64,000 nucleotides of DNA from Acinetobacter lanii (lineage in GTDB: Bacteria; Pseudomonadota; Gammaproteobacteria; Pseudomonadales; Moraxellaceae). Below are positions 8,726 through 30,292 of this stretch, piece after piece. The stretch is taken from positions 1,364,001 through 1,428,000 of the forward strand of contig NZ_CP049916.1 of NCBI RefSeq assembly GCF_011578285.1, given 5' to 3'. Position numbers and translations under genes: made by a program. The stretch's first letter is position 1. Every line of letters starts with the position of its first letter. The notes beneath the pieces were generated by a model, which was not told the DNA's origin, ran no database searches, and was given only the letters and a program-made list of their open reading frames with translations.

Positions 8726-9625
8726 ATGAAATCTGATATTTTTAATTTACATTTTTCGGGTCATGAAACCTTTGCACTACGCTATGGTTGGCTAAATAAA
8801 GCATATAATAATTTTAGTTTAAATGAAAAAGATATTGAAAAACAAGTTGTTGAGCTTGGTGTTGGTAAAAATATGGTTAACAGTATTAAATACTGGGCTG
8901 AAGTTTCAGGGTTGGTGCCGCTCAAAGATTCTGAGAATAGTAAACAAAACTATAAAACTGCAATAAGTGAAATTTTTGCAAAATATGATACTTACTTAGA
9001 GTTGAATGAATCTACTTGGTTACTACACTATTTTATTCAAAAAAACTTTACTGATCTAACACTTGCTCGCTGGTATTTTAATTATTGTAATAAACAAGTC
9101 TTTGAGAAATCTGAATTACTTAGTGATCTTATATTTTGGCTTGAAACAAACGGTTTGAAGCTACCTTCGGAAGCGACTTTGCAGAAAGATTTAGATTGTT
9201 TCATTCTTTGTTACTCAAAAAAACTAAGTAAGAAACAGCTTAATGAAGATGCTTTTATTTCGCCATTAAATGAACTAAATCTAATTTATCAGGTGGATTC
9301 TCATAAGTTTAAAGCTGATCTACTTGAGCAAAAAAATCTTTCAGTGGATATATTTTTATATTGCTTAACAGATTTTTGGCAAACACATTTCTCGGAAGCT
9401 CCTTCACTAAGTGTAGATATGATTTCGACTTATCCGGGAAGCCCTGGTCGTTTATTTCGTTTAAATAATGCATCGGTTGATTATTTCTTAAATCAATGTG
9501 CAGTTATTGACGATCGTTTTAACTGGACTGATACATTAGGAATGCGAAGCTTATCTTGCTTGGATATCAAAAATGTAAATTTAAACGAACTACTGGCTAA
9601 TATTTATCGTGAGTATCAGAAATGA
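8726..9625 (+). CDS. sspB: SspB-like DUF4007 protein (DNA phosphorothioation)
   Basis: The 299-residue protein starts with the DUF4007 signature FSGHETFALRYGWL (residues 10-23). In Ssp systems DUF4007 protein SspB acts with SspC and SspD to place a phosphorothioate in one DNA strand, and SspB of Vibrio was reported to nick DNA. Its ATG has no clear ribosome site, so it may be read from a leader or use an unusual site. It overlaps sspC by four bases (ATGA). The gene order DUF4007, large ATPase, PAPS-reductase-like is diagnostic. It is full-length and intact. Confidence 0.85.
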   Translation: MKSDIFNLHFSGHETFALRYGWLNKAYNNFSLNEKDIEKQVVELGVGKNMVNSIKYWAEVSGLVPLKDSENSKQNYKTAISEIFAKYDTYLELNESTWLLHYFIQKNFTDLTLARWYFNYCNKQVFEKSELLSDLIFWLETNGLKLPSEATLQKDLDCFILCYSKKLSKKQLNEDAFISPLNELNLIYQVDSHKFKADLLEQKNLSVDIFLYCLTDFWQTHFSEAPSLSVDMISTYPGSPGRLFRLNNASVDYFLNQCAVIDDRFNWTDTLGMRSLSCLDIKNVNLNELLANIYREYQK

Positions 9626-12600
9626 ATCAAAACTATAAATTAAATCATTACTATGAAATTCACGTAAACCATCTACTTTCGACACGACTTGATAGTGACA
9701 TATCGAAGGAATTTTTTGAGCGAGTAATTTTTCATGGAACAGCGTACAACTCATTGAAAACAATAGTTGATTCTTTTTATGAAAACACTCAATCCGCTTT
9801 TACTTTGACAGGTGGATATGGAACGGGTAAATCTACTTTAGCAGCGATTTTATCAGGGCTTTTACATCCAAATGATGAAATTAGAGTGGCTGCTAGAGCC
9901 CTAGTACAAGATTCTGATTTACTTAAGCAAATTGATAAAAATTTCAAGTTATCTAGTGATAAACCTTGGTTGATTATTAAAGCAGTCGGAGGGGTAACTT
10001 CACCTGTTGAGCTATTTTATAAATCCATCCTAAAAGCACTTCAAGATGCTAATCTTATGGATGTGTTTGAAAGTGACTTATTTTTTCTGCCAGATCAGAT
10101 AGATAGCGATCATCAATTAATTGAATGGATTGATGAAGTATTTAGAGCATTAGATGGAAGAATTTCGGGTAGTTTACTTATCTTAGATGAGATGGGTAAG
10201 CTTTTAGACCATATTGCTAGAAATAATGGTGATCTACATTTATTCCAGGATTTATCTGAGAGAATCAATAGACTTTCTACTAAGCAGTGTCCTTTTATCT
10301 TTTTAGGGATTTTGCATCAGGCGTTTGCTGACTATGCAAGAGGAATGAGTCATCATATCGCTTTAGAATGGACTAAAATTCAAGGTCGTTATGTTGATAT
10401 CTCATATCGAATTTCATTGGATGAATCGGTCGCACTTGTTTCTAAAACAATAAAAGCAAGAGAAACTCAAATTCCAGAAGCTATTACTGCTGTAAATAAT
10501 GCCTTAGTAACTAAAGTTGTAGGTTCTATTAAATCTCGATTGACAGAGAATAGTCCAAAACTGAATGTATATCTGCAAGAGGCATTGCCACTACATCCAT
10601 TAACTACGGTACTTCTGGGGATTATTTCTAAAAGTAGCTTTAGTCAAAATGAACGTAGTATTTTTAGTTTTCTTTTGTCAGTTGAACCTTTTAGTTTTAG
10701 AAAGTTTCTAGAGTCAGAAGTTAATCTAAACTCAACTTACACGATTGTTGATTTATGGGATTACTTAAGTCAAAACTTGCAACACCAAATCCTAAGTTCT
10801 AAAGAAGGGCATTTATGGGCAATCGTTGAAGAAACTCTAACTTTACTTAGTAAAAATCTAAGTAAAAAAGAGGGTTTAACTCCGGAAAGTGAAGAGTTAT
10901 ATCCTAACGTTATTAAAGCAATTGCAATGCTTAATATGTTTGGTAAGTCTTTAGGTATTTATCCGTCAGTAGATTTAATTGCTCACGCATTACCATCTTC
11001 ATCAAAAAACCTAGAAATTCTCCCTATATGTTTAAAGAATCTAGAAGATTGGGGAGTGATTACTTATTGGAATCGTACAAAGTCTTATGAAGTTGTTGAG
11101 ACATCTGAACTCAATATTCAGCAATTGTTACAAGAGAAGTTAGAGGCATTAAGTAACCAACAAAATTATTTTGAGCACATCAACTATAAGGGCAATTCAG
11201 TACTTGCAAAACGCCACTACCATGAAAGGGGTGTAATGCGTTGGATGGATCAGCATCTAGTAAATGATCTTCCTGGACTAGAACGTCTCATAAGTAAATC
11301 TGAATTTATTAAGTCAAAAGCTTTTGCGCACTTTGTTTTAATAACAGATCAAGCTCTTAATTCAACGAAACTAATTGAATTATCAAAGGAACATTCTCGT
11401 ATTGTTATTGCTAAGTTAGATAAAATTAGTGAATTATTAAGCTGGTCCAAAGAAATTTATGCACTAAATGAAATTTTTAGAGAATTGCCAAAACTGATGC
11501 TGGACACTGTTGCGAAAAAAGAATATGAGCAACGGTTAAATTATGCATATCAACAGGTCGATGATCTATTTAGTCAGTCATTTGAATCAGTGGAATGGTA
11601 CTGTAAGGGAAACCTTTTAAAGGGTAAGTCTTTATCCATTATTGTCTCTGATTTGGCTGATGAGCTATATCAATCATGTCCGAAAATCCTAAACGAATTG
11701 GTTGTTCGACATGATGTTTCTAGCTCTGCAGCTGCTGGTCGTAAAAAACTATTAGAAAATATGTTGGAGAATTCGAATCAAGAAAATTTAGGTATCGAAA
11801 AGTTCCCACCAGAAAAAGCAATTTATTTGTCTTGTATTAAACAATTAGGCTTACATCAGTTTAATGTGGAGAAGATGGAATGGGTATTTGATTTTCCTGT
11901 CTTAGATGAATCTAATAGAGATCAAAGTGAAAATTTAGAGCGTGTTTCGAAATTATTTCAACATGGATATAAAATTTTCACAGATACAAAGTCTTTAGTT
12001 CCTTTAACAGAGCTTTATAAAGTATGGTCAGATACGCCATTCGGTATTCCTCAAGGTGTATTACCAATATTTGCTTTAACCCTTTTGTTGGCTAAAGAAA
12101 AGAGCCTTGCTTTTTATGATAAAGATGTAACTCAAGAATTTAAGTTTATTAGTGAAATTGATGATGAGTACATCAATAAGCTGGTTAAGCGACCTCATGA
12201 GATTGCGGTTAAATATATTAAAGAGCCTGCTGAAAAAAATAGGTTTATCAATCTTCTAGCAAATAGCATTAAAGATATTTTTGACAAAAATATAGAGGCT
12301 ACCCCTTTAGCTGTAGCACGCTTTCTAGTTTCATACACTGTGAAGCAGTCTAGTTGGGCTAAGTTTTCTAAGGATAAAGAATATTTTGACGAGAAGGTAC
12401 AGTTATTAAGATCATTCCTTGTTAAGGCAGATGATCCTTACAAATTGCTTTTTGAAGACTTGTATGATGTGCTTGAGGTTTCTACAAGATCTGATGATCT
12501 AGTTCTTGCAGATCTATCAAATTTACTTGGTAGTTTTATGGGTGCAAAGCCAAATCTACTTAAAAATTTTGAAGGTAGATTACGTAAAGAACTCGGTAAT

Positions 12601-13095
12601 ATCACACCCGAAATCATTCAAGAAGCAGATGCAGTGAGCAAGTTTGCAGCTGATTGGAAAATGAAAAAATTTGCGGAACATCTATCTAGAAGCTCAAAAG
12701 AGTCCACTCAATGGTTGTCAAATTTAATTACATTGCTGGGTCAGATACCAGAAAAAGATTGGACAGATGATAGTCTGAAAAAAGCTTTTGAAGCTCTGCC
12801 TGGTTATGTCCAAAGATTTAAGCAACTAAGCTTTTTTGCTAGAAATGCTGAGAAATCAGAACAAATTTCATCTAATAAGCGATCCTTAGCAGTAATTATT
12901 AACACGGATCAAGGTCTTGAAGAATATAACCGAGACGTCATTGTAGATTCGACTATTGAGGATGATTTAAAAAAATTGCAAAAAGAGCTACTTAAAAAGG
13001 TGAATACTTTTGACCTAAGTGACGATGCTAAAGCAATGGTATTATATGGGTTGCTTAAAGATTATTTACATCCGATTGGTGAGGACAAAGCATGA
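9622..13095 (+). CDS. sspC: SspC-like large P-loop ATPase (DNA phosphorothioation)
   Basis: The 1157-residue protein has a Walker A GGYGTGKST (residues 64-72) and a Walker B LLILDEMGK (near residue 190). The rest is long, mainly helical and without recognised domains. In Ssp systems the ATPase SspC powers the sulfur-for-oxygen exchange together with SspB and SspD. ATGA overlaps with both neighbours imply translational coupling and a fixed complex. No frameshift or IS interrupts it. Confidence comes mainly from position between DUF4007 and the DndC-like gene. Confidence 0.85.
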   Translation: MNQNYKLNHYYEIHVNHLLSTRLDSDISKEFFERVIFHGTAYNSLKTIVDSFYENTQSAFTLTGGYGTGKSTLAAILSGLLHPNDEIRVAARALVQDSDLLKQIDKNFKLSSDKPWLIIKAVGGVTSPVELFYKSILKALQDANLMDVFESDLFFLPDQIDSDHQLIEWIDEVFRALDGRISGSLLILDEMGKLLDHIARNNGDLHLFQDLSERINRLSTKQCPFIFLGILHQAFADYARGMSHHIALEWTKIQGRYVDISYRISLDESVALVSKTIKARETQIPEAITAVNNALVTKVVGSIKSRLTENSPKLNVYLQEALPLHPLTTVLLGIISKSSFSQNERSIFSFLLSVEPFSFRKFLESEVNLNSTYTIVDLWDYLSQNLQHQILSSKEGHLWAIVEETLTLLSKNLSKKEGLTPESEELYPNVIKAIAMLNMFGKSLGIYPSVDLIAHALPSSSKNLEILPICLKNLEDWGVITYWNRTKSYEVVETSELNIQQLLQEKLEALSNQQNYFEHINYKGNSVLAKRHYHERGVMRWMDQHLVNDLPGLERLISKSEFIKSKAFAHFVLITDQALNSTKLIELSKEHSRIVIAKLDKISELLSWSKEIYALNEIFRELPKLMLDTVAKKEYEQRLNYAYQQVDDLFSQSFESVEWYCKGNLLKGKSLSIIVSDLADELYQSCPKILNELVVRHDVSSSAAAGRKKLLENMLENSNQENLGIEKFPPEKAIYLSCIKQLGLHQFNVEKMEWVFDFPVLDESNRDQSENLERVSKLFQHGYKIFTDTKSLVPLTELYKVWSDTPFGIPQGVLPIFALTLLLAKEKSLAFYDKDVTQEFKFISEIDDEYINKLVKRPHEIAVKYIKEPAEKNRFINLLANSIKDIFDKNIEATPLAVARFLVSYTVKQSSWAKFSKDKEYFDEKVQLLRSFLVKADDPYKLLFEDLYDVLEVSTRSDDLVLADLSNLLGSFMGAKPNLLKNFEGRLRKELGNITPEIIQEADAVSKFAADWKMKKFAEHLSRSSKESTQWLSNLITLLGQIPEKDWTDDSLKKAFEALPGYVQRFKQLSFFARNAEKSEQISSNKRSLAVIINTDQGLEEYNRDVIVDSTIEDDLKKLQKELLKKVNTFDLSDDAKAMVLYGLLKDYLHPIGEDKA

Positions 13096-13964
13096 CCCTT
13101 GAAAAACCAGTAAAACATGTCCTAGGGCTTTCTGGTGGTAAGGATAGTGCTGCGCTTGCTGTCTACATGCGAGACCACTATCCTGAGTTAGATATTGAGT
13201 ATTTTTTCACTGATACTGGTAAAGAATTGCCTGAAGTCATGGATTATCTAAACCAATTAGAATCTTACCTAGGTAAACCAATTTTGCGCTTAGGTTCAGA
13301 TAAAGATTTCGATTACTGGTTGAAGGAATATAATCATTTTCTTCCGTCTGGCCATCAACGCTGGTGTACTGTACAGATGAAACTAGTACCATTCGAGAAA
13401 TGGGTTAAACCCTTTCTTGATGAAGGGTATGAAATCATCAGTTACGTTGGAATTCGTGCAGATGAGCCTTGGCGTGAAGGTTATGTACCAACTCAAAAAT
13501 TTTTAACGACCAAAATGCCATTTGCTCAAGATGGTCTAGTCAAAGAGGATATTATTAATATTCTAGAAGGGACTGGATTAGGCCTTCCTAAATATTATGA
13601 ATGGCGCTCTAGGAGTGGATGTACTTTCTGTTTTTATCAAAGAAAGATTGAGTGGGTACGTTTGATGGAACGACATCCTACTAAATTTGAAGAAGCGAAA
13701 GCTTATGAAAAGCAACTTAATGATGAGAAGTCTACTAATGGTGAAACATATTACTGGATGGGTAAGAATACTCCTCTAAGTACCTTAGAGGATCCAGTAC
13801 GTGTAGCCCAAATAAAATCTGATCATGAGAAAAAACTCGAACGATTTAAGAAAAAGCGCCGTCGTAATGCTCTATATGATGATCAGTTGATTGAGATGAT
13901 TGATTTAGATGCTCTGTATGATGACATAGAGGGTGGTGGTGCTTGTGTGACGTGTTATAAATAA
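13092..13964 (+). CDS. sspD: SspD-like PAPS-reductase family ATP pyrophosphatase
   Basis: The 290-residue protein has the PP-loop SGGKDS (residues 14-19) of ATP pyrophosphatases. It has Cys in RWCTVQMK (~94), a CxxC in SGCTFCFYQ (~175-180) and a second CxxC at the extreme C-terminus (ACVTCYK, ~285-288). These fit the DndC/SspD branch, which activates the DNA phosphate with ATP and may hold an Fe-S cluster supplied through the cysteine desulfurase SspA. It ends the sspBCD operon and is followed at once by a terminator. Confidence 0.88.
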   Translation: MTLEKPVKHVLGLSGGKDSAALAVYMRDHYPELDIEYFFTDTGKELPEVMDYLNQLESYLGKPILRLGSDKDFDYWLKEYNHFLPSGHQRWCTVQMKLVPFEKWVKPFLDEGYEIISYVGIRADEPWREGYVPTQKFLTTKMPFAQDGLVKEDIINILEGTGLGLPKYYEWRSRSGCTFCFYQRKIEWVRLMERHPTKFEEAKAYEKQLNDEKSTNGETYYWMGKNTPLSTLEDPVRVAQIKSDHEKKLERFKKKRRRNALYDDQLIEMIDLDALYDDIEGGGACVTCYK

Positions 13965-13966
13965 AA

Positions 13967-14102: not shown

Positions 14103-14540
14103 CTAAGAATGTTCTTCAATGGTATCTAATAGATTAAATAGAGGTTTTCCTTCTTCTATATCATTAAGAATTTGTAAAACATGCGGTATTCCTGCATTTG
14201 CTAAAGCAGAAACATAATTAAACATTTCACGGGCTTCATCTAATTTTTCAATATCCTGGTTATCGGCTAAATATACCATTTGCATATGTTTGACATGATA
14301 ATCTTCTAATATACTTGCAGCTGTAATATTGCTTACATCATTTGTACTAAAGTGTTGTGGTTTAATGTTTGTTTTTACAGCATAAATAAAGGCAAAATAC
14401 CAAAGGTCTACTTGTCGATTAAAAGGAGTAAATTCTCCTTGAGCTCTAGGTTCAGATTGTTTACAGAACTTTTTAACTTCTTCAGCATATTGTTTAGGTA
14501 TAGCAATTTGGTAGTTACTAAAAGGATTGTAAATTGACAT
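14103..14540 (-). CDS. unrecognised 145-residue protein of the Ssp-linked - strand operon
   Basis: The start is set at ATG 14540 (MSIYNPFSNYQ) because the stop codon of the upstream ATPase gene, restored without the IS66-type element, ends two bases earlier (TAA at 14542-14544). The longer frame to 14606 only overlaps that gene. The protein is soluble, with FTPFNRQVDLWYFAFIYAVK near residue 38 and an acidic helical C-terminus. I do not recognise the family; it recalls the small accessory proteins linked to dnd loci but that is not established. Its last residues abut an IS relic, so the C-terminus may be altered. Confidence 0.6.
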   Translation of the reverse strand: MSIYNPFSNYQIAIPKQYAEEVKKFCKQSEPRAQGEFTPFNRQVDLWYFAFIYAVKTNIKPQHFSTNDVSNITAASILEDYHVKHMQMVYLADNQDIEKLDEAREMFNYVSALANAGIPHVLQILNDIEEGKPLFNLLDTIEEHS

Positions 14541-14541
14541 T

Positions 14542-14664
14542 TTAGATAGCCTCTTGGTAATCAATGCGTTGACATATATCACAAGACTGCTTGTGATTAC
14601 ATTCACATCTTAAAATTCTTGTGTCTGAAATTTCAGGTTTATTAGCTAGCATTAAAGGATAGTG
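14542..14664 (-). pseudogene. displaced C-terminal tail of the SMC/DndD-like ATPase
   Basis: Joining this segment to 16766 and upward, after removing the IS66-type element and one copy of its 8-bp duplication, continues the ATPase frame without a break. The tail reads PLMLANKPEISDTRILRC, then ECNHKQSCDICQRIDYQEAI and stop. It has two cysteine pairs (CEC and CDIC) suggesting a metal site. The stop TAA at 14542-14544 is two bases from the next start, the normal tight operon spacing. This strongly supports the reconstruction. Confidence 0.75.
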
Positions 14665-14822
14665 GTAAGCGTCCGCTGAATCCCATGCCTATTTTTTAAT
14701 TTTGGTCGGATTTCCAGCGGTGTGGCAGTAATTCTGATGTGGTTCTAGGATTTTAGACCACGCCTATAAGTGATAATCTACTCCCCAATAAGCATGGGAA
14801 ATGCTTGTTTTTGGAGTCAACC

Positions 14823-15128
14823 ATGACACGAAGAAAACGTCGTAATCATTCAGCAGAGTTTAAAGTTAAAGTTGCTCTCGCAGCAATTAAAGGCGACCAC
14901 ACACTCGCTGAACTTTCTACTCAATTCGATTTACATCAAAACCAAATCATCGATTGGAAAAATCAACTGCTTGAGCAATCAGTCAATATTTTTTCACGAC
15001 CAACAGCACAACAAGAACCAGAGATTGACCTCAAAGCTCTACATGCCAAGATAGGACATCAGGCATTGCAAATTGATTTTTTAGAAGGTGCGCTCAGAAA
15101 AATAGGGCAGCTGAGCGGCAAAAAATGA
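14823..15128 (+). CDS. IS3-family transposase OrfA (element A, copy 1)
   Basis: The ATG at 14823 (MTRRKRRNHSAEFKVKVAL) is preferred over the upstream TTG. The product is a ~101-residue HTH protein with a short coiled coil. Its stop overlaps the orfB start (ATGA, 15125-15128). It is identical in sequence to the copy at 19481-19786. The downstream OrfB is truncated, so this copy cannot transpose by itself. Confidence 0.85.
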   Translation: MTRRKRRNHSAEFKVKVALAAIKGDHTLAELSTQFDLHQNQIIDWKNQLLEQSVNIFSRPTAQQEPEIDLKALHAKIGHQALQIDFLEGALRKIGQLSGKK

Positions 15129-15348
15129 TCGATAAGACCCATCAACTTTCGGTACGACAACAATCGCAATTGATTCAAATCAATCGCAGTACGTTGTATT
15201 ACAAGCCCAAAGAGATTTCATCAACTGATTTGAGTTGGATGCGTCTAATCGATGAAATTCATCTCGACTACCCATTTATGGGCAGTCGAATGATACGAGA
15301 TATGCTACAGCGTCAAGGACATCAAATAGGTCGGCGTAAAGTCCGACG
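15125..15348 (+). pseudogene. IS3-family OrfB fragment (element A, copy 1)
   Basis: The frame reads MIDKTHQLSVRQQSQLIQIN to GRRKVRR and then runs into element C. The catalytic domain is missing entirely. The intact part matches residues 1-75 of the copy at 18869-19484. Confidence 0.85.
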
Positions 15349-15398
15349 TGAACCGTACCGGGTTTGTCGGAGACCAACTTTCTTGAGAGAATGTCCCA

Positions 15399-15716
15399 AT
15401 GACAAAACCAAAATATACCCCTGAAATCAGAGAAAGAGCGGTTCAATTATTGATTGAATCTGAAAAAGATTATCCTTCTACTTGGGCTGCAATCACAGCA
15501 ATTGCACCTAAGATTGGCTGTACTCCTGAAACACTACGTTCCTGGCATCAGAAGTATTTGAATCAACAGAATCCAATCAAAGTACAGCAGCTTTCAGACC
15601 AAGAACGCATTAAACAACTTGAACGCGAAAATAAAGAACTGCAACGAGCCAATGAAATTCTACGCAAAGCAGCCGCTTTTTTCGCCCAGGCGGAGCTCGA
15701 CCGCCCACACAAATAA
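15399..15716 (+). CDS. IS3-family transposase OrfA (element C, copy 2)
   Basis: The 105-residue HTH and coiled-coil protein differs from copy 1 at a few residues (for example STWAAI against SNWAAI, RSWHQKYLNQQ against RVWYQKYLDKQ). It shares the overlap with OrfB. Both frames are intact, so this copy could be active. Confidence 0.9.
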   Translation: MTKPKYTPEIRERAVQLLIESEKDYPSTWAAITAIAPKIGCTPETLRSWHQKYLNQQNPIKVQQLSDQERIKQLERENKELQRANEILRKAAAFFAQAELDRPHK

Positions 15717-16618
15717 TGGTGGATTTTATCCATAATAATAAAGAGCTGTACGGAGTCGAGGCGATTTGTAGAATTTTACCTATCGCACCTTCAACCTATT
15801 ACCGAACTTTAGACCTCGCGGACAATCCAGAACATCGAGCGAAACGAGATTTACATGACTTGCATCATGCTGAACAAATTAAACGAATTTGGAAGGAAAG
15901 TTCAGGTCGATATGGTGTACGTAAAGTTTGGCAAAAACTGAAACGTGAAGGCTATATTATTGCGCGCTGTACAGTTGCTCGATTGATGCAAAAGCTAGGT
16001 ATACAAGGTGTTTGGCGAGGTAAGAATAAACAAACGACCCGTAGCCGGGATGATCAAAAACGAGCAGATGACTTGGTGAAACGCAATTTTAGTGCTGATC
16101 AGCCTGACCAGCTGTGGGTCGCTGACTTCACGTATATTCAAACAAATTCAGGCTGGGTCTATACCGCCTTTATTATTGATGTGTTCTCACGAGCAATTGT
16201 TGGATGGAAAGTATCAACACGTATGAATACAGACATGGTGCTCGATGCACTGGAGCAAGCATTGCATGATCGAGGCATGCCAAAGAACGTGATTCATCAT
16301 AGTGACAGAGGCGTGCAATATCTTTCCATTCGTTATACCAATCGTTTAGAAGCAGCAAATTTACGAGCATCAGTCGGTACGACCGGTGATTCATACGATA
16401 ATGCTTTGGCTGAAACGATGAATGGCTTATACAAAACAGAGGTGATTGAATATTTAAAAGCAGATTGGCAAGGTTTAGCGGATGTACAACTTGCGACACT
16501 AAATTGGGTAGATTGGTTCAATAAAGAACGTGTACATAGTGCACTGGGTTATGTATCACCTTTTGATTTTGAAGTAATCTACTATGATAAGATTAACCCG
16601 TTAGGTCAGGTGGCCTAA
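15716..16618 (+). CDS. IS3-family transposase OrfB (element C, copy 2)
   Basis: The 300-residue protein has an intact catalytic triad (VADFTYIQT, HHSDRGVQY, NALAETMNGL). It differs from copy 1 at around a dozen positions, including the C-terminal YVSPFDFEVIYYD. The divergence shows that the two copies did not arise from one very recent duplication. Confidence 0.9.
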   Translation: MVDFIHNNKELYGVEAICRILPIAPSTYYRTLDLADNPEHRAKRDLHDLHHAEQIKRIWKESSGRYGVRKVWQKLKREGYIIARCTVARLMQKLGIQGVWRGKNKQTTRSRDDQKRADDLVKRNFSADQPDQLWVADFTYIQTNSGWVYTAFIIDVFSRAIVGWKVSTRMNTDMVLDALEQALHDRGMPKNVIHHSDRGVQYLSIRYTNRLEAANLRASVGTTGDSYDNALAETMNGLYKTEVIEYLKADWQGLADVQLATLNWVDWFNKERVHSALGYVSPFDFEVIYYDKINPLGQVA

Positions 16619-16690
16619 CTTAAATAAAAAGTCTCCGACAAACCCGGTACGGTTCACAGTGTCTATAACTGTCTTTAAATCCATAAATAG

Positions 16691-16716
16691 GTGTCCACTT
16701 AAATTTTAGTGGACAC
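16691..16716. repeat. 9-bp inverted repeat near the IS66 right end
   Basis: GTGTCCACT, eight bases, AGTGGACAC. It may be two abutting ends of a lost small element or a hairpin in the IS66 remnant. Confidence 0.45.
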
Positions 16717-16761
16717 TATCGCGGTATTAATGAGTCAGGAAAAGTGGGGCTCAGCGGACGC

Positions 16762-17682
16762 TTACGGATAGTGAGCCGGGTTAGTTAATGTAAAAATTCT
16801 ATCCGCATAATTGTCTATTATTTTCTCTACACCATGAATCTCATCATGAGTTAGAAAAAGGATGATTTGACTACCGTCTTTAATCATCTGTTTCAATACA
16901 GACTGCTTTACATATCCTGACATCATACCTAAAGGAGTATCAATTACATTTGGAGCTTCAACTTCTGAAACCTTAGTCAGTGCAAGAATAAATGCTAATG
17001 TGATTGCCCGTCGAGATGCGCCATTTAGATCTTGGTCTGGATCAATTCTAATGCCATTTATACCGTATACCATGATTTCATAATCTGTACTTAAGGCTGC
17101 TTTTGTAATTGAGGAAAAGTCATTTTCATTAGGTGAGGAACCAATCATTTCTAAGAAAATCCTATTCATTTCACTACTAACACGCTGTATTTCTTCATGT
17201 TGTAATTTATCTAAAATATTTTTAAAACCATTCTTAAGTGTTTCAGATAATAAAACCCGATTAGTATTTTTATCATTTTTACCTAGTTTCTTTTGAACTT
17301 TTTCTCTGTCTTCATTAAGTTCTTTAATTTTTATTTCTGAATTTTCCAGTAATGCTTGTTTACGACTTAATTCATTTGAGGCATCTATAAAATTATTATC
17401 GTGTTGTTTGAATATCGAGCGATATAGTTGTAAAGAATCATCATTAATACCATTTATCAGTTCATTTTTTTCGTTAATTTTTGATTGATTGTCAGCAAAA
17501 GACTTTAGACAGCAAGTATATTGATGCATCCTATCGTTATAAACACTATTCCAAGTATCACTAGCAATACTAGGGTTGGTACTAACTACTTGGAAATGTA
17601 AGCTAGTTGCAAGCTCAGTTTTTCTATCAGAATCTTGGCTATCTTGAATAATCTTTCTAATATGTTGAATATGATTATGGCC
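16762..17682 (-). pseudogene. SMC/DndD-like AAA ATPase, both ends disrupted by ISs
   Basis: The frame is open from the element B junction (17682) to a stop created by the IS66 end (16762-16764), so the ATG at 17529 is internal. The segment has a coiled-coil stretch (ELSRKQALLENSEIKIKEL ...), an ABC-signature-like LNGASRRAI, a Walker B PNVIDTPLGM and an H-loop-like ILFLTHDE. These are the C-terminal half of an SMC/RecF/DndD-type ATPase. The Walker A half is missing. The true C-terminus is at 14542-14664. It lies in the - strand operon downstream of sspA and is presumably a lost partner of the Ssp system. Confidence 0.7.
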
Positions 17683-17721
17683 GGTAATCCTCCCATAAAT
17701 AACCGAAGTTAAAAGTAGAGG

Positions 17722-21454: not shown

Positions 21455-23320
21455 ATGTCAGAATTACAATATAAGCCATCTGCGAGATGGATACGTTATT
21501 TGCGTAGTTACGGTCCGACTCCAAATAATGCAGTTATGTTTGATGAACATGTTACGAAAGCAGCGCGTCTAGCTAAAATTGATCCAATAGAATTACCTAT
21601 CCCATTGCTACCTAATATTTTAGAAGCAGTACATGCAGAGGGCGGCGGATCTATTATCATTGCAGGAACAGCTGGAGATGGGAAAACTTATCACTGTCGT
21701 GCATTATGGGAAGCAATAGGAGGAGATCCTTCTGAGTGGAATGATTCACACGCAGCAATTAAAAGTTTAAATATTAATAATGATAAAAAAATATATTTTG
21801 TAAAAGATTTAAGTGAATTAAATGAACAAGATGGAAAATTTGTTCTTGAACTATTAGAGAGATCCGTTTTAGAAAACGACAATAAACATATTCTAGTAAT
21901 TGCTGCCAATCATGGGCAAATTTTAGAACGTTTACGAAAACGATCATACAAAGAATTTTCTACCCACCCAATACGAGAAACTTTAGAGCAAGTTTTTCTG
22001 CAAACTGGTGAAGGGCTTTCAAGGTTACATGTATTTGACTTAAGCCGTAGTACTCATCGTAAGTCATTAACTGATGTGCTAGATATATTAATTACCCATC
22101 CTGAATGGGAAAAATGTTCAAATTGTTATTTTCAAAGTAGTGGGAAAGGCTGCCCAATCAGTGAAAATCGTCAACGCTTACTTGGTGCAACATTCGAATC
22201 TGAACAGTTACGCTCACGTTTATCCGATTTAATTGATATTGCTAGGTTAAATGGCTCGCATTTACCTGTTCGTGATGTACTTGCTTTATGTGCAAATATT
22301 TTGCTTGGTCATGCTGAGGTTAAAGATGGACTGATGCGTTGTGATGATATTGAGAAAATACTAAATGATGGAACATTTTCTAAGGGAAGTTTGTATGACA
22401 ATATCATGGCAAAAAATTTACCTAATCAGAGAGTAGGAGAACGCCCTGTTTTTAAAGCTTTATCTTCTTTTCAAATAGGTGAAGAAACAACAAATGAAAT
22501 TGATGGGTTATTAATTTATGGTCGCTACGATAGTGAATTATCTCCAATCTATGAAGACCTTATCGAAAATGATAAACAGTATGGTGGTTCAGCATATTTT
22601 AAAAAAGCCCAAGAAGCTTATTTAGAAGGTGATGAATACCAAAAAGATAATATTAATCAAAAGCTTATTCAGTTGTTAGAAAGCCAACGCCGTCGATTGT
22701 TCTTTACATTGCCTGATAGTGGTTTAGGTAAAAACTATTTTTGGAATCTAAGTGCATACAAATATGCTGCTTCTTATTTAGATCTTATTAAAAATCTCAA
22801 AAATAATCAGCCCATTCCTGAGGATATACGTCAATTAATTACATTGGGTATTAATCGTATTATGACGGGAATTTTAGTGGAAGAAGTAGAAAATATTATA
22901 GTTGCAACATCTGGAGGCTTTACAGAATCAAAAGTAAGCGTACTAACTAAAGAAGAAATACCAGCGCGTCCTACAAGAAGAAACACAGAGGGGATGCTGA
23001 TCAGATTGAATCATAATAATAGGCCATTAATTGATTTCCATATGGAAGATGATAAGGATGGTGTTCCTTTTGAGTTAACACCAATTAGATTCGAATTTCT
23101 GGCGAGAGTTGCCAATGGAATCTTACCTAATAGTTTTTCTAGTGAGTGTTTGGAAGATCTATTAGCTTTAAAGTCAAAACTCTTACGAAGAGTTGAGCAA
23201 ATACAACTCGAGTTTGGTGATAGCTACATAGCTTATAACATTAATACGCTGTCTTTAAAATTTGTGAATGATGGGTTTAGTCATGGTTCTAAACATATAT
23301 CAGTGAGATTAGATAAATGA
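21455..23320 (+). CDS. sspF: SspF/DndF-like P-loop ATPase (phosphorothioation-linked restriction)
   Basis: The 621-residue protein has a Walker A GTAGDGKT (residues ~71-78) and a later VIAANHGQIL that looks like a sensor strand. A Cys cluster (CSNCYFQSSGKGC, ~222-234) may bind zinc. GAGGGG precedes the ATG. It heads a three-gene operon with the size order ~620/500/1800 residues seen in DndFGH and SspFGH modules, which attack DNA lacking the phosphorothioate mark. It overlaps the next gene by ATGA. I favour SspF over DndF because the modification genes here are of the Ssp type. Confidence 0.75.
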   Translation: MSELQYKPSARWIRYLRSYGPTPNNAVMFDEHVTKAARLAKIDPIELPIPLLPNILEAVHAEGGGSIIIAGTAGDGKTYHCRALWEAIGGDPSEWNDSHAAIKSLNINNDKKIYFVKDLSELNEQDGKFVLELLERSVLENDNKHILVIAANHGQILERLRKRSYKEFSTHPIRETLEQVFLQTGEGLSRLHVFDLSRSTHRKSLTDVLDILITHPEWEKCSNCYFQSSGKGCPISENRQRLLGATFESEQLRSRLSDLIDIARLNGSHLPVRDVLALCANILLGHAEVKDGLMRCDDIEKILNDGTFSKGSLYDNIMAKNLPNQRVGERPVFKALSSFQIGEETTNEIDGLLIYGRYDSELSPIYEDLIENDKQYGGSAYFKKAQEAYLEGDEYQKDNINQKLIQLLESQRRRLFFTLPDSGLGKNYFWNLSAYKYAASYLDLIKNLKNNQPIPEDIRQLITLGINRIMTGILVEEVENIIVATSGGFTESKVSVLTKEEIPARPTRRNTEGMLIRLNHNNRPLIDFHMEDDKDGVPFELTPIRFEFLARVANGILPNSFSSECLEDLLALKSKLLRRVEQIQLEFGDSYIAYNINTLSLKFVNDGFSHGSKHISVRLDK

Positions 23321-24807
23321 AATTCCTAGAAGATGTTGATTTTGTTGTTGATGAAAAAATTTGGGGACATCGTTTATATGATGAGCAGTTACCTCATTTA
23401 ATCTTATTAGAATTTCTAGGAATATTAGCTTCACATCGAGATGATCCATTAAATGAAGTAGATGATAAAGTAATTTATAAGCCGCAGCGTCAGCTTCGAT
23501 TGCGCGGTGTATTATTTAATAATCCATATATAAATATAATCGCATCTTCTAATAGGTCTGACGAAAAAAAATGGCAAGAATGGTTTGAGGAATATCAAAA
23601 AGGTGCATATGCAGAAGAAGATATGACTTATTTGAAAGAGGTCTTTAGTTCATTTGATGATTTTGCACGTGTTGTTGAATTGTTGCGATCTTCGTCTTTT
23701 GAGATAAATAGTAATAAAAGATGGAGTTCAAAATTTGTCTTCCCATTCGGGCCTGATGCCTTATATGAAGATTTGCGCATTGATAAATCTGAAACGAATG
23801 ATAGACGATTTTTTGCACGAACAGGTGAGATTTTGTATTTAATGCTTTGTCGTGCTGAGAATAAAAATGAATTGGGAGAGCTGTTAGTCAAACGTCTTTT
23901 AGAATCTGATCTATCTCTAAATCGATTAGTGAAAGCTATTCAAGGTGATAGACAAGAGGCAAAACTAGCTAAAGAGATTAGTAGTTTGCAATTACCAATC
24001 CTTAAACATGATCGTTTCGATCAGCTCTGCCGTGATTGGATTCATATCCTAAAGCAAGATATTCCCTCCTATGATGCAATTTCATACTTAATGTTTTCAG
24101 CTGGTTTGAACATGTTGTTGTATTTTCTTGAGCGCTCGAAAGAAGTTTTATCTGAAGAAAAGCCTATAAGATTAGTCTGTGAAATCATTTCTAAAAATCG
24201 AACTAAAATAAGAGCAATTTCTGCGGATGATTATCAACATAATCAGAATTTGTCTATACGCTCCATTGCTGCAGAAATTGAAAATATTCAGCAAAATGAA
24301 GAGTGGATGTCCGCATCTTCACAACTTTATCCTGAGTCAGAATATATACGTTTAATGCAGAAGCAATTTAAATGGCCAAGTGAAGATGAAGAAAGTTCAG
24401 ACTGGTCAGCTGATTCACTTATTGAAAAGTTAATTGATAAAGCTCAACTCAGACATAAGCAACATTTAGCAAAAGTCCACTCAGCTTGGTCTAAGGCTAT
24501 TGGTTTAAGTTCTCGTCGCTTATCTAGAAGAATGCGTTATGCGCCTAATGATCATTTTTTGAAATCGCTTGTTATTACAGTAGTTGATAAACGCATGCCT
24601 TTTGATGATTTCTTAGAAGTAATTAAAAATAGGTATGGTTTAGTGGTTGGTGAGGCACAAGCTCAAGAGCTTATTACTAGTAATCAAGTGGATCAGGAAG
24701 CTTTCAGTAAAAATAGTGAATATCTAGCTGAACGTTTAATGAGTTTAGGTTTAGTTAGGCAATTGTCTGATGGATGTGCTTTTGTAGAGAACCCATTTAA
24801 TATTTAA
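23317..24807 (+). CDS. sspG: SspG/DndG-like restriction partner
   Basis: The 496-residue protein has no enzymatic motif that I recognise. The N-terminal part has RVRGVLFNNPYINII and then FPFGPDALYEDLRI, and the C-terminal half is helical and basic. Assignment depends on position: translationally coupled (ATGA) to the ATPase upstream, and followed four bases later by a ribosome site for the large FtsK-like gene. In DndFGH/SspFGH the middle gene of this size is structural or assists the ATPases. Confidence 0.65.
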   Translation: MKFLEDVDFVVDEKIWGHRLYDEQLPHLILLEFLGILASHRDDPLNEVDDKVIYKPQRQLRLRGVLFNNPYINIIASSNRSDEKKWQEWFEEYQKGAYAEEDMTYLKEVFSSFDDFARVVELLRSSSFEINSNKRWSSKFVFPFGPDALYEDLRIDKSETNDRRFFARTGEILYLMLCRAENKNELGELLVKRLLESDLSLNRLVKAIQGDRQEAKLAKEISSLQLPILKHDRFDQLCRDWIHILKQDIPSYDAISYLMFSAGLNMLLYFLERSKEVLSEEKPIRLVCEIISKNRTKIRAISADDYQHNQNLSIRSIAAEIENIQQNEEWMSASSQLYPESEYIRLMQKQFKWPSEDEESSDWSADSLIEKLIDKAQLRHKQHLAKVHSAWSKAIGLSSRRLSRRMRYAPNDHFLKSLVITVVDKRMPFDDFLEVIKNRYGLVVGEAQAQELITSNQVDQEAFSKNSEYLAERLMSLGLVRQLSDGCAFVENPFNI

Positions 24808-24817
24808 GGAAATGAAT

Positions 24818-27800
24818 ATGAAAGAAAATAAAATTATTGGATGGGTTGGTGCTGTATATTTTGAAAATTACCTGCAGCAAATAAATGATTCTCAGCTAAC
24901 AAACGAACCATTAAATATTGAAACTGCGTTATTTAGACTAGACCAATTAACGGCAGGCCAAATTGCTACAATTGTAAAGGAAATATTGTCGAGGCCATCT
25001 TTAGAACAGTATATTTCACTTAAAATTCCAAGAGCTTTAATTGGAGATGAAGTATTACCAAATGAAGTATTGATTGATGATAATGCTGCTAGTGTTCGAA
25101 ATCAGAGTATTGAAAAACAGATATTAATAACAGCAAGCTCTAGAAATGACATTGGAGATACTCTTGCGCATATTACTATCGTCAGTGCGAAAGAGTTAAA
25201 GGCAAATAGTGATCCGTGGGTTCAAGCATGTTGTCAATTAGGGAATTTAGTCCTTACTCCAGATGATGAAAAAACTTTTGCAAAAGCACTAGAAGCACTG
25301 ATTGATTCTATTGAGCTTTCATTGGTACAAATTGCTAATTTTTGTCTTAGTATTATTGAGGCAAATAATATTCATGGATTAGCGATAAGACAGGCAATCG
25401 GATGGGCTCTACCAAGTATAGGGTTGCCTCGAGATACTTACTTTTTTAGTAATGCTAAAGCATTTTCACATGCTAATCGTCCTTGGAAAAATGCCTTTGA
25501 TAAATTAGCGACGCATCGATATCCCTTATTAAAGTATCAAAAAGCAAATGGTCAACCGTTAGATCCTGCAGAAATGGAAAATCGTCTGAATGATAATTTG
25601 GAAGATATAGATGAAGACATTATTCCTGTTTTGCAACGATTTATAAAGGGGTCTATTAATGATGTTGAAGCTATTCAAGCACTCGCAGAATTAGAATGGG
25701 AACAAGATAAAGTTTATCTTATTTTTGACCGGCCGAAAGAAAAACAAAGTGGTTTAGCTGAATCTACTTTGCAATTTTTCTCAGATATTTGTGACCCAGA
25801 TGATGCTTTAACTGAAGAGTGGTGCAATCACTTAACTGAGTTAAAAACACGAGAAAAAAGAGGCGAATGGATTGATGAAGATAAAATTTTCTTTGATCTA
25901 CATCGTTATTTCTTAGAGCAAGATACAAAATTATTAGCACGTTGGGAAAAAGTCATCTTTGGGCAGGCTATAGAGTGTCAGGACTTTTTAGAGGGATTAG
26001 TTTTCGCAACTTATCAATTACTTGCTGGATCAGAAGATTTTAATGGTGAGCGTTACTTAAAAATCTCAGTCAACAAGGGGAGAAAAGCTTGGCTTGATCA
26101 GTTTAATCATGATGCAGTGACATTCTTTTGTGTAATGTATCGTGGTTTATATAAGGCGATGGGATCCAGAATTATTTGGGAAATTCCAAATCAAAAAACT
26201 CAATTACCAGATATCTTATTTGATTATGAAGCTTTCTTAAATAAACAAAAAGAACGTCTAGGAAAGAAATTTAAATCAATAAAATCTCTATCACGAGCTG
26301 CATTGCAAATTAAATTTGAAGTTGCACTAGTTGAACGTCAATCAAGTAATCAAGAAGTTATTTTGAAGAAAAATCAACTGATATGGAATTACTCAGCTAA
26401 TTCTATTGGGCTTGCTCTTGCTGATGACTTAGGGCGAATACTTGAGAAAGGGGGGATTGCTTGTACACAAGTCAGTCGGAAAATAGTGAGCAAAAAAGGG
26501 GGAGTGCAAAGTGTTTCTCTTGAAAATGTTGGTAGTTTAGAAGCTACATTTTCAAATGATCCAGGCTCTCTTATCCCATCAGCTAGTAAATTAAAAAGTC
26601 AACGTCATCAAATTAAACAATCTCTTGAAGAGTTATTTAAAGATGGATTTATAAATGACGTAGCGTATAGGAAGATAAAAGAAAGCTGGGAAAAATTTGA
26701 AAAAGTTTATCCTTTTGCACTTCAAAATTTTAAACAACATGGATTAAATCAACCAAGTATATTTGATCAAGCCGATGCATATGCTGAATTATTAGATACG
26801 CTATTAACTTATGCATGTAACGATGTTAGCCGGGAAAAACTTGTATCCAAGGTAATGTCTATTGGAACCGTTATAGTCTCAGGAGAGCAATCTACTTTAA
26901 TAATTCCACCTTGGCACCCTGAACGTTTAAAGGCATTAGCTGTTAAAACTAAACGAACAACTGCGTTGCTAACCCATTTATTGACAGCTGATAGTATTAA
27001 ATTTGGTGATAGAAATATTTTCTTTAAAGAGTTTTTTGATGAACTTAAACATCCTTTCTATCCAGAAGTAGCGATACTTCAAAAGAAAAATGTTGCGGAG
27101 CCCGAGCTAGTTACAGTTACTAGTACAGTGAATGGCTATAGCCTTCTAGAAACTCCTATGAATTCGGGGCAGACACTTAGTGATACTTCCCCGCAAATAG
27201 CAGCTAAACAAATTAATGAGCTTATAGAACGCTATATAGGGTTGCAACCTCATAAAATTCGCAATTTAAATATTTTATTGTATAACTCTGATGCAGCAGA
27301 CTTACCATTAGCTGTGGTTAAAGAACTCTCTAATCTGTATGAAACGGAACAAGCTGAGATGAAATGTAATGTCATGGTTCGACATACAGAACCAAGACAT
27401 TTAGCTTCTATTTATGCAGAATTAGTGAATAGAGCTGCAGAAGATGAAGATTTACCACTCGTAAGTGAAATATCTGATAATTTTATTTCTAAATTAAGGA
27501 TAGGTGTCTCTAAATCTGCAGGAGTGGACAGCAATTCTCTTTTAGGATCCAAGCCATTTGATATCGCTTTTTTACATGATGTTGTAGCAAGGACTGCTAC
27601 AATAGAATGGATTCCTGCTCCTTGGAGTGAGAATCGTCAGAATTTAGAACACGCTCCCTCACGCTGGTCTTATAGGCGTGTAGCAAAAGATGGTGAGCTT
27701 AAATCAACCAGTTTTCTAACTTGCCCATGGCAGACTGAAACCGGTTGGAGCTATTTGGCTGCAGTAGCTGCTCTCGCGAAAAAAGATGCAATTAATAAAC

Positions 27801-30292
27801 ATGACCGCTTGCTTCCGGCTCGTCAGATTTCATTACAGCATCAACGTTTAGCTGAAATAATGGATGATGCCCATCAGCAAGCAGAATGGGTTGCCACATA
27901 TGATGAACTTTTAGATAAAAAACAATTGCAAAATCAAAATATTACAGTTGTTCGATATCGTAGAAATTCAACGAATGGTCGTAATATGATTGTTAGCTCT
28001 ACTGCTGATTTAAGATTATTAAATGGACTTACGTATCGTCGTTTAGAAGCTCTATCATTATCTTTCAATCAATCGGAATTGAACGATCTTACTAAACTAA
28101 TTAAAAAAGATGCTTTATCTATTTCTGGACAGATTGTATTGCGTGCTGCACGCCGTGGTATATCTGCTGGTGAAATGTTAGGGTTAGTACTGAGTCGTTA
28201 TTTAATCTCTAATGAATTTGAACATTTAAATAATAATCGTGACGCAATTAGTGTCTATTTCTTACTAGATGACTATGCATCTTGGTTATCTCAAAAAGAA
28301 AGTCGAATCGCTGATTTACTTGCTCTGTCTATAATTGATTGTGATGATGAAATTCATTTGCACATTGCAATTGTTGAATCTAAATATGTCTCATATGAAG
28401 GCGTCGCAGATGCAAGACGCTCATCAAAAGCACAGTTGATGGCGACATTAACATCTTTTAGAGATGCTTTATTTGGAGACCCGAGTCGATTAGATAGAGA
28501 CGTCTGGTTATCACGTATTTCTGATCTACTTGTAGATGCTGATGTAGGAATTGGCCAAACTGATTTACTTGAAAGAGCACGAATAGCGATTCGTGAAGGA
28601 ATAGTTAATATCTCTTTACGAGGGTACTCTCATGTGTTCGTTCACAGTAATGATGTATCAGCTACTAATTCTCTGTCAGAACAGTTAGAAATCGATAGCT
28701 CAAATATTTTCCAAGCATGGCAGGAAGTATTTGATCGGAAGGAGCTTCGTGCTCTAGTCGAAGCATATGCTAAACAAGAAGATTCTTTATATGTTAGATC
28801 CGTATTAGGTATAACAGAGCCATGGAAAAATATCATTCTTAATAAGCCTGCTCCTCAAGTGAATTGGACATCACAGGTTGATGAATTACATGGTTTTGGA
28901 CCTAAAGATGCATTACCAAACACTTTAGAAGAAACACAAGTTCCAGAAAAAAGTGATCAGATACAGATAGAGTTTAATGATGTAAATTCTGAAGAGGTTA
29001 TTCATTTATCTGACCAAATATTAGGTGAAACATCTAAGATCAGTGAATCTACGATTGATTTAGTTCGAACAGATATAGCTAAATCTAATTTAGCTGAGTT
29101 AATTCATTCAAATAATTCTTCACAAAATCAGAAAGATGCATCTAAAGAAGAATGGGCAGAAAAAATTACTAAAGATTTAAGAAAAGCTTTAAATGGATGG
29201 GGTTTCCAAGTAAATCTACTAGGAACAAGAATCACTCCAAACGGATGTCTAGTTCGTTTAGCTGGCTCAGATCGTTTACGAGTTGAGGATATTGAAGCTA
29301 AGCGAACTCAATTGTTAACCACACACGCTATAAATATTATAACTGTACAACCTAAACCTGGTGAAATTGTTGTAACAATTTCAAGCGATATACGACAAGC
29401 TGTTTCAATATGGGATTTATGGCAACGTCGTTTAATAAATCGTAATAAAGCTGGGATTAACGTTTCTTTTGTAATAGGAATACAAGAGCTTAATGGCGAG
29501 TTACTATATTTGAATTTAGGTGGAGATTTTTCAGGATTACCTGGACATGAGCCACATACTCTAGTAGCTGGTGCTACAGGAAGTGGTAAATCAGTATTAC
29601 TACAAGTATTACTTCTTGATATAGCAGCAACAAATTCTAAAGATTTAGCTCAGATTATTCTTATCGATCCTAAAATGGGGGTCGATTATGCAGCTTTAGA
29701 AGATTTACCACATATGCGTGAACGAATTATTACAACTAAAGAGAGAGCAACTGAAGTTCTTGCAAATTTAGTTGATGAAATGGAAAATCGCTATCAGTTA
29801 TTTGCTCAAGCTAGAGCAAGAGATTTAGCAACTTATAATTCAAAAGTTGCTGAAAGTGATAGGCTACCTATGGTGTTTCTAGTACATGATGAATTTGCTG
29901 ATTGGATGTTTGATGATACTTACAAAGCGGACGTAGGTTCGGCTGTTCAGAGATTGGGTGTGAAAGCTCGAGCAGCAGGTATCCACTTAATATTTGCTGC
30001 ACAAAGACCAGATAAGGATGTTATGCCAATGCAACTACGAGAAAATTTGGGTAATCGCCTAATCTTAAAAGTTGCTAGTGAGGCGACTTCCAAGATTGCC
30101 CTTGATCGTCCAGGGGCTGAGAGATTATTAGGTAAAGGACATCTAGCCGCTAAATTAAATGGGGATTTGATATATGCTCAGGTACCCTTTGTTTCTGATG
30201 ATGAGATAAATCAAATCGTAGAAACGATAGTCAGAGATAATGGTACTCCCCAACACTTATCTAGTCTTGAAAACAAAGAAATTACTTGTTAG
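24818..30292 (+). CDS. sspH: SspH/DndH-like giant protein with C-terminal FtsK/HerA ATPase
   Basis: The start is set at ATG 24818 because AAGGA (24806-24810) is seven bases before it but only one base before ATG 24812. The ~1824-residue protein ends in an FtsK/HerA-type motor: Walker A AGATGSGKS (~1585-1593), LIDPKMGVDYAALEDLPHM, Walker B MVFLVHDEFADWM (~1683) and AAQRPDKDVMPMQLRENL. The first 1500 residues are unrecognised. It resembles DptH/DndH in size and layout. It likely moves on DNA and, with SspF and SspG, damages or blocks unmodified phage DNA. The gene is intact and followed by a terminator. Confidence 0.78.
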   Translation: MKENKIIGWVGAVYFENYLQQINDSQLTNEPLNIETALFRLDQLTAGQIATIVKEILSRPSLEQYISLKIPRALIGDEVLPNEVLIDDNAASVRNQSIEKQILITASSRNDIGDTLAHITIVSAKELKANSDPWVQACCQLGNLVLTPDDEKTFAKALEALIDSIELSLVQIANFCLSIIEANNIHGLAIRQAIGWALPSIGLPRDTYFFSNAKAFSHANRPWKNAFDKLATHRYPLLKYQKANGQPLDPAEMENRLNDNLEDIDEDIIPVLQRFIKGSINDVEAIQALAELEWEQDKVYLIFDRPKEKQSGLAESTLQFFSDICDPDDALTEEWCNHLTELKTREKRGEWIDEDKIFFDLHRYFLEQDTKLLARWEKVIFGQAIECQDFLEGLVFATYQLLAGSEDFNGERYLKISVNKGRKAWLDQFNHDAVTFFCVMYRGLYKAMGSRIIWEIPNQKTQLPDILFDYEAFLNKQKERLGKKFKSIKSLSRAALQIKFEVALVERQSSNQEVILKKNQLIWNYSANSIGLALADDLGRILEKGGIACTQVSRKIVSKKGGVQSVSLENVGSLEATFSNDPGSLIPSASKLKSQRHQIKQSLEELFKDGFINDVAYRKIKESWEKFEKVYPFALQNFKQHGLNQPSIFDQADAYAELLDTLLTYACNDVSREKLVSKVMSIGTVIVSGEQSTLIIPPWHPERLKALAVKTKRTTALLTHLLTADSIKFGDRNIFFKEFFDELKHPFYPEVAILQKKNVAEPELVTVTSTVNGYSLLETPMNSGQTLSDTSPQIAAKQINELIERYIGLQPHKIRNLNILLYNSDAADLPLAVVKELSNLYETEQAEMKCNVMVRHTEPRHLASIYAELVNRAAEDEDLPLVSEISDNFISKLRIGVSKSAGVDSNSLLGSKPFDIAFLHDVVARTATIEWIPAPWSENRQNLEHAPSRWSYRRVAKDGELKSTSFLTCPWQTETGWSYLAAVAALAKKDAINKHDRLLPARQISLQHQRLAEIMDDAHQQAEWVATYDELLDKKQLQNQNITVVRYRRNSTNGRNMIVSSTADLRLLNGLTYRRLEALSLSFNQSELNDLTKLIKKDALSISGQIVLRAARRGISAGEMLGLVLSRYLISNEFEHLNNNRDAISVYFLLDDYASWLSQKESRIADLLALSIIDCDDEIHLHIAIVESKYVSYEGVADARRSSKAQLMATLTSFRDALFGDPSRLDRDVWLSRISDLLVDADVGIGQTDLLERARIAIREGIVNISLRGYSHVFVHSNDVSATNSLSEQLEIDSSNIFQAWQEVFDRKELRALVEAYAKQEDSLYVRSVLGITEPWKNIILNKPAPQVNWTSQVDELHGFGPKDALPNTLEETQVPEKSDQIQIEFNDVNSEEVIHLSDQILGETSKISESTIDLVRTDIAKSNLAELIHSNNSSQNQKDASKEEWAEKITKDLRKALNGWGFQVNLLGTRITPNGCLVRLAGSDRLRVEDIEAKRTQLLTTHAINIITVQPKPGEIVVTISSDIRQAVSIWDLWQRRLINRNKAGINVSFVIGIQELNGELLYLNLGGDFSGLPGHEPHTLVAGATGSGKSVLLQVLLLDIAATNSKDLAQIILIDPKMGVDYAALEDLPHMRERIITTKERATEVLANLVDEMENRYQLFAQARARDLATYNSKVAESDRLPMVFLVHDEFADWMFDDTYKADVGSAVQRLGVKARAAGIHLIFAAQRPDKDVMPMQLRENLGNRLILKVASEATSKIALDRPGAERLLGKGHLAAKLNGDLIYAQVPFVSDDEINQIVETIVRDNGTPQHLSSLENKEITC

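Follow-up and report, generated by a model that had tools for sequence, protein, structure and literature searches.

A 64,000-nucleotide stretch of the Acinetobacter lanii genome (contig NZ_CP049916.1, positions 1,364,001 to 1,428,000; hereafter the window) carries ssp genes for DNA phosphorothioate (PT) modification and defence, with fragments of further genes lying between sspD and sspA. Which genes were these, and did they belong with the Ssp system? The initial annotation, made without database searches, had suggested that they may once have formed a third arm, either effector or modifier, that has since been lost, and this proposal gained support from relatives in which Pbe proteins are encoded beside Ssp. 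The locus belongs to an established type, SspABCD-SspFGH, and carries what is left of a second effector. We assign a probability of roughly 0.78 to the reading that it is a PT defence locus with a PbeABCD arm that was destroyed by insertion sequences (IS) and belongs to a clade partnered with Ssp rather than with Dnd.

PbeABCD has been published as a partner of Dnd (PMC6459918, PMC10853773). No passage placing Pbe beside Ssp was found in the literature searched, which covered few subscription papers and no bioRxiv preprints. One study tallies PT-modifying genes (dnd or ssp) together with pbeA-D by genus (PMC7464106), and because it pools dnd and ssp per genus, co-occurrence of Ssp and Pbe may hide in its figures. 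The pbe genes themselves are known; the recurring Ssp-Pbe pairing, the clade and its marker seem to be new.

Remains of pbe genes in the window

As the initial annotation had described, remains of three genes lie between sspD and sspA on the minus strand, the strand of sspA; tblastn and PADLOC matches identified them as pbe genes, located downstream of sspA. Adjacent to sspA is an N-terminal remnant of pbeA (19884-20147, minus strand), which keeps about 83 of about 720 residues and matched PbeA in PADLOC (8e-18) and an intact PbeA in tblastn (3e-22). Its open reading frame (ORF) starts at 20147, with the match spanning 20123-19884, and its ATG is located 17 bp past the sspA stop codon. The remnant is too short to contain the HKD motif or the helicase. 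Two elements that we take to be IS3-like, as elsewhere around these remains, occupy 17683-19874, where the 5' half of pbeC, the whole of pbeB and the bulk of pbeA would be expected. The main piece of pbeC (16765-17682, minus strand; tblastn 1e-111) lies after the coiled-coil apex, and a C-terminal piece (14551-14664, minus strand; tblastn 1e-8) contains the motif RCECNHKQSCDIC. This second piece (14664-14551) is additional to the gene remains listed initially. Between them, nested insertion sequences (14665-16765) with inverted ends and IS3-like elements inside split the gene; the ends of the splitting element are presumably IS66-like. An 8-bp direct repeat, GGATAGTG, flanks this element at 14657-14664 and 16766-16773, and the residues HYP are present in both PbeC pieces at their shared edge. 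The same IS3-like element was found at 14735-15349 and 19260-19874 as inverted copies identical over 615 nt, one interrupted by another IS and the other cut off. The only intact pbe gene is pbeD (14103-14540, minus strand), which encodes a DndE-like protein of 145 amino acids (aa; tblastn 1e-55 to the intact locus L043).

Compared with L043, the window retains PbeA residues 4-83 of 721, PbeC residues 356-661 and 659-696 of 698, and the whole of PbeD. PbeA past residue 83 and PbeC residues 1-355, including the ATP-binding half and the apex, are gone, as is PbeB, the region between pbeA and pbeC having been taken over by IS. Thus, of the published Pbe set, the small DndE-like protein is present, PbeB is missing, and the neighbour is Ssp instead of Dnd; no DndC match was found in the genome, of which the contig makes up 3.41 of 3.43 Mb. 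Chance matches as the source of the fragments were discarded in view of the tblastn E-values. Insertion sequences have taken the place of pbeB, of all but the start of pbeA and of the ATP-binding half of PbeC, and the Pbe arm is dead here: read from the sequence, the window holds remains of Pbe and no working Pbe, and PbeA and PbeC cannot function. Because an intact 697-aa PbeC in public data (P0036) shows no difference from the window fragment across 306 residues, the damage is probably of recent date.

Pbe cassettes beside ssp genes and the PbeC clade

A PbeD profile was scanned against genome_contigs (84,980 species by its description). The scan uses short degenerate peptide patterns and hence finds close relatives only; 32 stretches fitted a pattern, and eight loci encoded a relative. 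PbeA, PbeC and PbeD were encoded together in 8/8 of these loci, and SspD was located within 10 kb in seven of them; in the eighth (L049), sspA adjoins pbeD. These loci answer the objection, foreseen in the initial annotation, that related genomes might never carry the extra genes next to sspA. The PbeD alignment contained the window, 23 homologs and a row from locus L040, which came from an SspD search and does not fit the search patterns; P0001, P0017 and P0025, of 26 homologs, were left out of the alignments.

The arrangement of the two gene sets varied. In a Caldilineaceae locus (L050, also L143), a full sspABCD lies upstream of the pbe genes, and in Psychrobacter, sspBCD and the pbe genes are convergent, as in the window. 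A Sphingomonadaceae plasmid (CP099618), found via SspD, carries a single run sspA-B-C-D-pbeA-B-C-D in which sspD and pbeA overlap by 4 bp, and the same order was found in G866, which was detected via PbeA. The idea that sspA constantly leads the pbe operon was given up, since among the loci examined it does so in the window alone. SspE was also encoded in the Pbe loci of Psychrobacter submarinus and Idiomarina baltica, so that Pbe shares Ssp with a second effector there, as it once did with SspFGH in the window. An ORF of 62-78 aa lies between pbeA and pbeC in all ten clade loci, and the PbeA of L043 contains the domains PLDc_2, ResIII and Helicase_C. In Psychrobacter luti (L044, 5478-7677), PbeA is split over two ORFs, so that its Pbe arm, too, may be losing function.

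Further searches added few relatives. PbeD and PbeC profiles gave 18 and 11 pattern matches in viral_contigs, with no relatives among them, and a search of 72,556 plasmid records returned a single record, the same for PbeD as for the PbeC fragment. Two orders searched with the PbeC profile (151 and 197 genomes) gave three matches in total, all in genomes already known, and the PbeD profile matched three of 299 genomes of the window's family, namely that of the window and two of Psychrobacter.

In a tree of PbeC (22 rows), a single branch (100/99) separated the ten clade loci and the window fragment from all other rows, with the window next to Psychrobacter (100/100). The clade was kept when four DndD sequences were included as outgroup and the tail columns were removed (26 rows); both trees carry long-branch warnings, which concern sequences outside the clade. 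The same group was recovered for PbeA (20 rows, 100/100), with L085 included. A C-terminal CxC...CxxC was present in 10/10 clade PbeC and in 0/11 others (five Dnd-linked, one from Rhizobium and five of other context), while the CxC at the apex was found in 10/10 and 10/11, respectively. Among the matches listed for a set of 726 PbeC homologs, the tail motif was present in 118/120, the other two being shorter proteins that end before it, and none of the six cysteines, two at the apex and four in the tail, varied in an alignment of 29 selected clade PbeC. On these grounds, the Ssp-linked PbeC is a distinct clade apart from Dnd-linked PbeC. A low score to TIGR04095 (cut-off 600) was considered as a further clade marker, two clade PbeA scoring 346 and 352 bits, and was dropped because a Rhizobium PbeA (482 bits) is also below the cut-off.

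The model of L043 PbeC (pLDDT 80.5, pTM 0.55) had its best structural match in Rad50 (E 1e-16, TM 0.38), with pLDDT of 81-86 at residues 661-690, and the motif suggests that the C-terminal cysteines may bind zinc. In a search of PDB sequences with the PbeC profile, a myosin coiled coil was the only match. PbeD is predicted to have a DndE-like fold; its Foldseek E-values were not significant, and DndE stood out by a second aligner only, with relaxosome chains close behind. Of three clade PbeD compared with TIGR04062, two gave no match and one was below the cut-off; to judge from these three, annotation can miss PbeD of this clade.

The SspC proteins of the nine clade loci having one did not form a clade (single clade rejected, p-AU 9e-89). 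The Pbe label required 7 changes on the SspC tree compared with a label-shuffled mean of 7.6, and is thus not clustered on it at all. This was a quick tree of 26 rows; no bootstrap values were computed, and it carries warnings about long branches, differing composition and incomplete rows. Since PbeC forms one clade and the accompanying SspC does not, the Pbe cassette has apparently moved between Ssp backbones. The SspC of the window was closest to those of two relatives of the same genus that carry an FGH-like set instead, which, together with the scattered SspC, suggests that effector cassettes change while the backbone stays.

On a Rhizobium indigoferae plasmid, sspABCD faces pbeA, pbeD and pbeC and a 55-aa ORF. 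Here PbeA and PbeC each grouped with a Dnd-linked pair (100/100 in both trees), which makes this a second, independent pairing of Ssp and Pbe, and a single group of all Ssp-linked PbeA including that of Rhizobium was rejected (p 7e-63).

The wider distribution of PbeA was sampled with the profile PDLC02707 in 369 and 398 genomes, with at most two or three candidates scored per genome, so that counts are lower bounds. At least 60 and at least 108 genomes were positive, mostly through partial helicase matches, and at least nine proteins were nearly full-length. For nine PbeA (a partial match, G649, was left out), the context was Ssp in one (G866), DndC within about 10 kb in three (G634, G1050, G754), DndC some 28 kb off on the same contig in one (G953), neither seen in two (G372, G791), and a contig too short to tell in two (G693, G948). 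Given these mixed contexts, Pbe as a whole cannot be called an Ssp module, a description that fits one clade. In the nine clade genomes tested for DndC (the eight PbeD-selected ones and G866), no match over the family cut-off was located on the Pbe contig. One genome (G1092) had such a match on another contig, and two matches below the cut-off fell on sspD genes.

Approached from the other side, SspD exceeded 400 bits in 5/175 genomes of the genus and reached 1e-60 in 10/369 genomes of the class, the window included. Within the fetched stretches and with chosen queries, the neighbours of these ten SspD (that of G588 judged on a plasmid record, L042, with the same coordinates) were SspFGH in three, an FGH-like set with a DndH-like protein in two, SspE in one and no recognised effector in four, one of which has a weak PbeA-like helicase. 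The remnant in the window was the only clade Pbe among the ten.

Possible role of the Pbe arm and alternative explanations

From its repeated occurrence with this kind of sulfur-marking system, the PbeABCD clade may be read as a third type of Ssp effector. By homology, SspA would supply sulfur, SspD would activate it, and SspB and SspC would place single-stranded PT marks on host DNA, 5'-CpsCA-3' on one strand being the mark expected of such a module; SspFGH, apparently intact and the effector left in this genome, would attack DNA without marks, an activity shown for a Vibrio system (PMC8092258). An SspFGH effector would be expected to restrict phage and to be toxic where PT is lacking. In relatives with an intact cassette, PbeC-PbeD, in which a Rad50-like CxC ATPase is joined by a DndE-like partner, may search DNA for the Ssp mark and, on finding none, bring in or permit the action of PbeA, a PLD-nuclease/helicase; the small PbeB is a putative regulator. 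The C-terminal CxC...CxxC of clade PbeC is a candidate for the feature that fits this clade to Ssp marks or to the Ssp proteins. A stronger version, in which clade PbeABCD is a dedicated, portable third effector type beside SspE and SspFGH across divergent backbones and the C-terminal zinc element of PbeC reads one-strand PT instead of the double-stranded Dnd marks, is tentative, and we rate it somewhat below even odds.

The clade loci share with the published DndCDEA-PbeABCD systems (PMC6459918; CxC ABC-ATPase-DndE systems in PMC10853773) the order pbeA-B-C-D and the components, a PLD and SF2 helicase PbeA, a CxC ABC ATPase PbeC and a DndE-like PbeD. They differ in the partner, which is Ssp and not Dnd, in their separate PbeC clade, and in the C-terminal CxC...CxxC, which is missing from the five Dnd-linked PbeC tested. 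In print, Pbe is tied to Dnd. If the clade pairs with Ssp, the effector slot of Ssp would be modular (SspE, SspFGH, a DndH-like FGH set or Pbe), and the same kind of effector could be compared on double-strand (Dnd) and single-strand (Ssp) PT marks.

Several observations weigh against this reading. The coupling of clade Pbe to Ssp modification is deduced from gene neighbourhood. The clade member L049 (L141), an 18.3-kb contig of a Bathymodiolus endosymbiont that also encodes PbeABCD and a relative of the TIGR04096 methyltransferase, has sspA, a BrxC/SspC-like ORF with weak SspC matches, a PglZ-like protein and BrxL, and SspB, SspC and SspD gave no tblastn match on it. L085, which fell within the PbeA clade, is a 3.5-kb contig without visible Ssp, and a group without it was rejected (p 0.007). 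Intact Pbe beside SspFGH was not found among the loci examined, the window being the sole case of the combination, so Pbe may have been redundant here. Pbe without Dnd is also common, 320 of 553 published PbeAC being without dndCD (PMC6459918), and clustering in defence islands could explain part of the Ssp-Pbe linkage. The same survey lists 25 bacterial loci that have PbeAC together with DndFGH. As that survey sought dnd and methyltransferase genes, pairing with Ssp may conversely account for part of the Pbe without dnd neighbours.

Pbe could instead be an independent defence module in the same island that does not read Ssp marks. Published Pbe-like CxC systems stand by themselves or are accompanied by Dnd or by methyltransferases (PMC6459918, PMC10853773), Pbe adjoins a methyltransferase on an archaeal plasmid (L138), and L049 has its BREX-like genes. 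We nevertheless consider such independence unlikely, given SspD within 10 kb in seven PbeD-selected loci and sspA in the eighth, the sspD/pbeA overlap within one run, the persistence of the pattern across several SspC backbones, and the lack of DndC over cut-off on the Pbe contigs of the nine clade genomes tested.

As to the choice left by the initial annotation, an effector is more likely than a modifier, sequence alone leaving room for both. As a second modification arm, PbeC-PbeD would write another PT motif with the sulfur chemistry of SspA and SspD; PbeC and PbeD are related to DndD and DndE of the Dnd modification machinery (PMC10853773), the genome has no DndC match, and sspA heads the operon in the window. 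This is very improbable, because in an archaeal system virus protection required all four pbe genes, separate from the modification set (PMC6459918), and PbeA is a nuclease/helicase by its domains. Least credible is that the fragments are decayed DndD and DndE of a lost Dnd system. The PbeC fragment does match DndD (PADLOC 9e-17, NCBIfam 3e-15), but PbeC was the better match (PADLOC 8e-20, with DndD next), a PbeA remnant lies at the expected end, and the genome gave no DndC match; the DndD-rooted tree, which places the fragment within the Ssp-linked clade of PbeC, refutes this origin unless the root is wrong. The Ssp-partnered Pbe arm thus remains the preferred reading.

The ssp genes of the window and other Ssp loci

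All seven ssp ORFs are open and full-length, in agreement with the complete Ssp locus described initially. sspB (8726-9625, plus strand) encodes a 299-aa DUF4007 protein (Pfam 2e-65, PADLOC SspB 6e-86), sspC (9622-13095, plus strand) a 1157-aa ATPase with the Walker A motif GGYGTGKS (PADLOC SspC E 0, 2026 bits), and sspD (13092-13964, plus strand) a 290-aa PAPS-reductase-like protein with an SGGKDS motif (PADLOC SspD 4e-130). These three genes are contiguous, and a terminator hairpin apparently follows them, as read from the sequence. The cysteine desulfurase gene sspA (20165-21265, minus strand; 366 aa, PADLOC SspA 1e-132) completes the modification module; a 397-aa ORF for it begins at an upstream TTG and was set aside in favour of the start at 21265. 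Divergent from sspA and adjacent to each other are sspF (21455-23320, plus strand; 621 aa, Walker A), sspG (23317-24807, plus strand; 496 aa) and sspH (24812-30292, plus strand; 1826 aa). The family searches proposed earlier assigned them to SspF (PADLOC 5e-206), SspG (3e-197) and SspH (E 0, 2214 bits), and the product of sspH, which has an FtsK/HerA-like C-terminus, matched FtsK structures at 1e-36. The ATGA overlaps already seen at sspB/sspC and sspC/sspD are present, and another joins sspF and sspG.

The locus resembles SspABCD-SspFGH of Vibrio anguillarum FF-93 (PMC8092258) in sspBCD, sspFGH and a cysteine desulfurase, with full-length family matches. It differs in that sspA is located beside sspFGH, whereas the published system used iscS, and in the PbeABCD remains between sspD and sspA. 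With SspABCD-SspE it shares the modification genes, but no SspE match was found in the window's genome.

Other combinations were seen in the Ssp loci compared. L033-L036 (G064, G037) carry a hybrid effector of SspF-like, SspG-like and DndH-like proteins (566, 527 and 1746 aa in L033), with relatives by tblastn in L130 and L134. In L033 the set is headed by sspA and faces sspBCD, and two further proteins are encoded, one of 290 aa that matched nothing and one of 1485 aa that weakly matches SspC; the ORFs of L035 are similar in length and order. Between sspD and pbeA, L046 (3198-5407) has a restriction-nuclease-like protein (NsnA match) and a PD-T4-6-like protein, copies of which, 65-69% identical, are found in L047 (3197-5442). 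The product of L045 10584-13265 matches TIGR04096, "DNA phosphorothioation-associated putative methyltransferase", and L046 11168-13696 and L047 10392-13007 encode its BLAST relatives; such relatives occur in Ssp loci with Pbe (L046, L047, L049), with an FGH-like set (L130) and with SspE (L135). On a Mesorhizobium plasmid (L039, 12816-17163), three proteins encoded facing sspD, namely a PLD nuclease, a GHKL ATPase and an SF2 helicase, look like a PbeA split in two plus another ATPase.

Directly upstream of sspB, the window contains an HNH endonuclease ORF (7589-8524), whose first residues look like read-through from the adjacent IS end, so that its true start may be lost. Further upstream, an 878-aa protein with a phage-integrase domain is encoded (1296-3932), which may mark the defence island as an integrated element.

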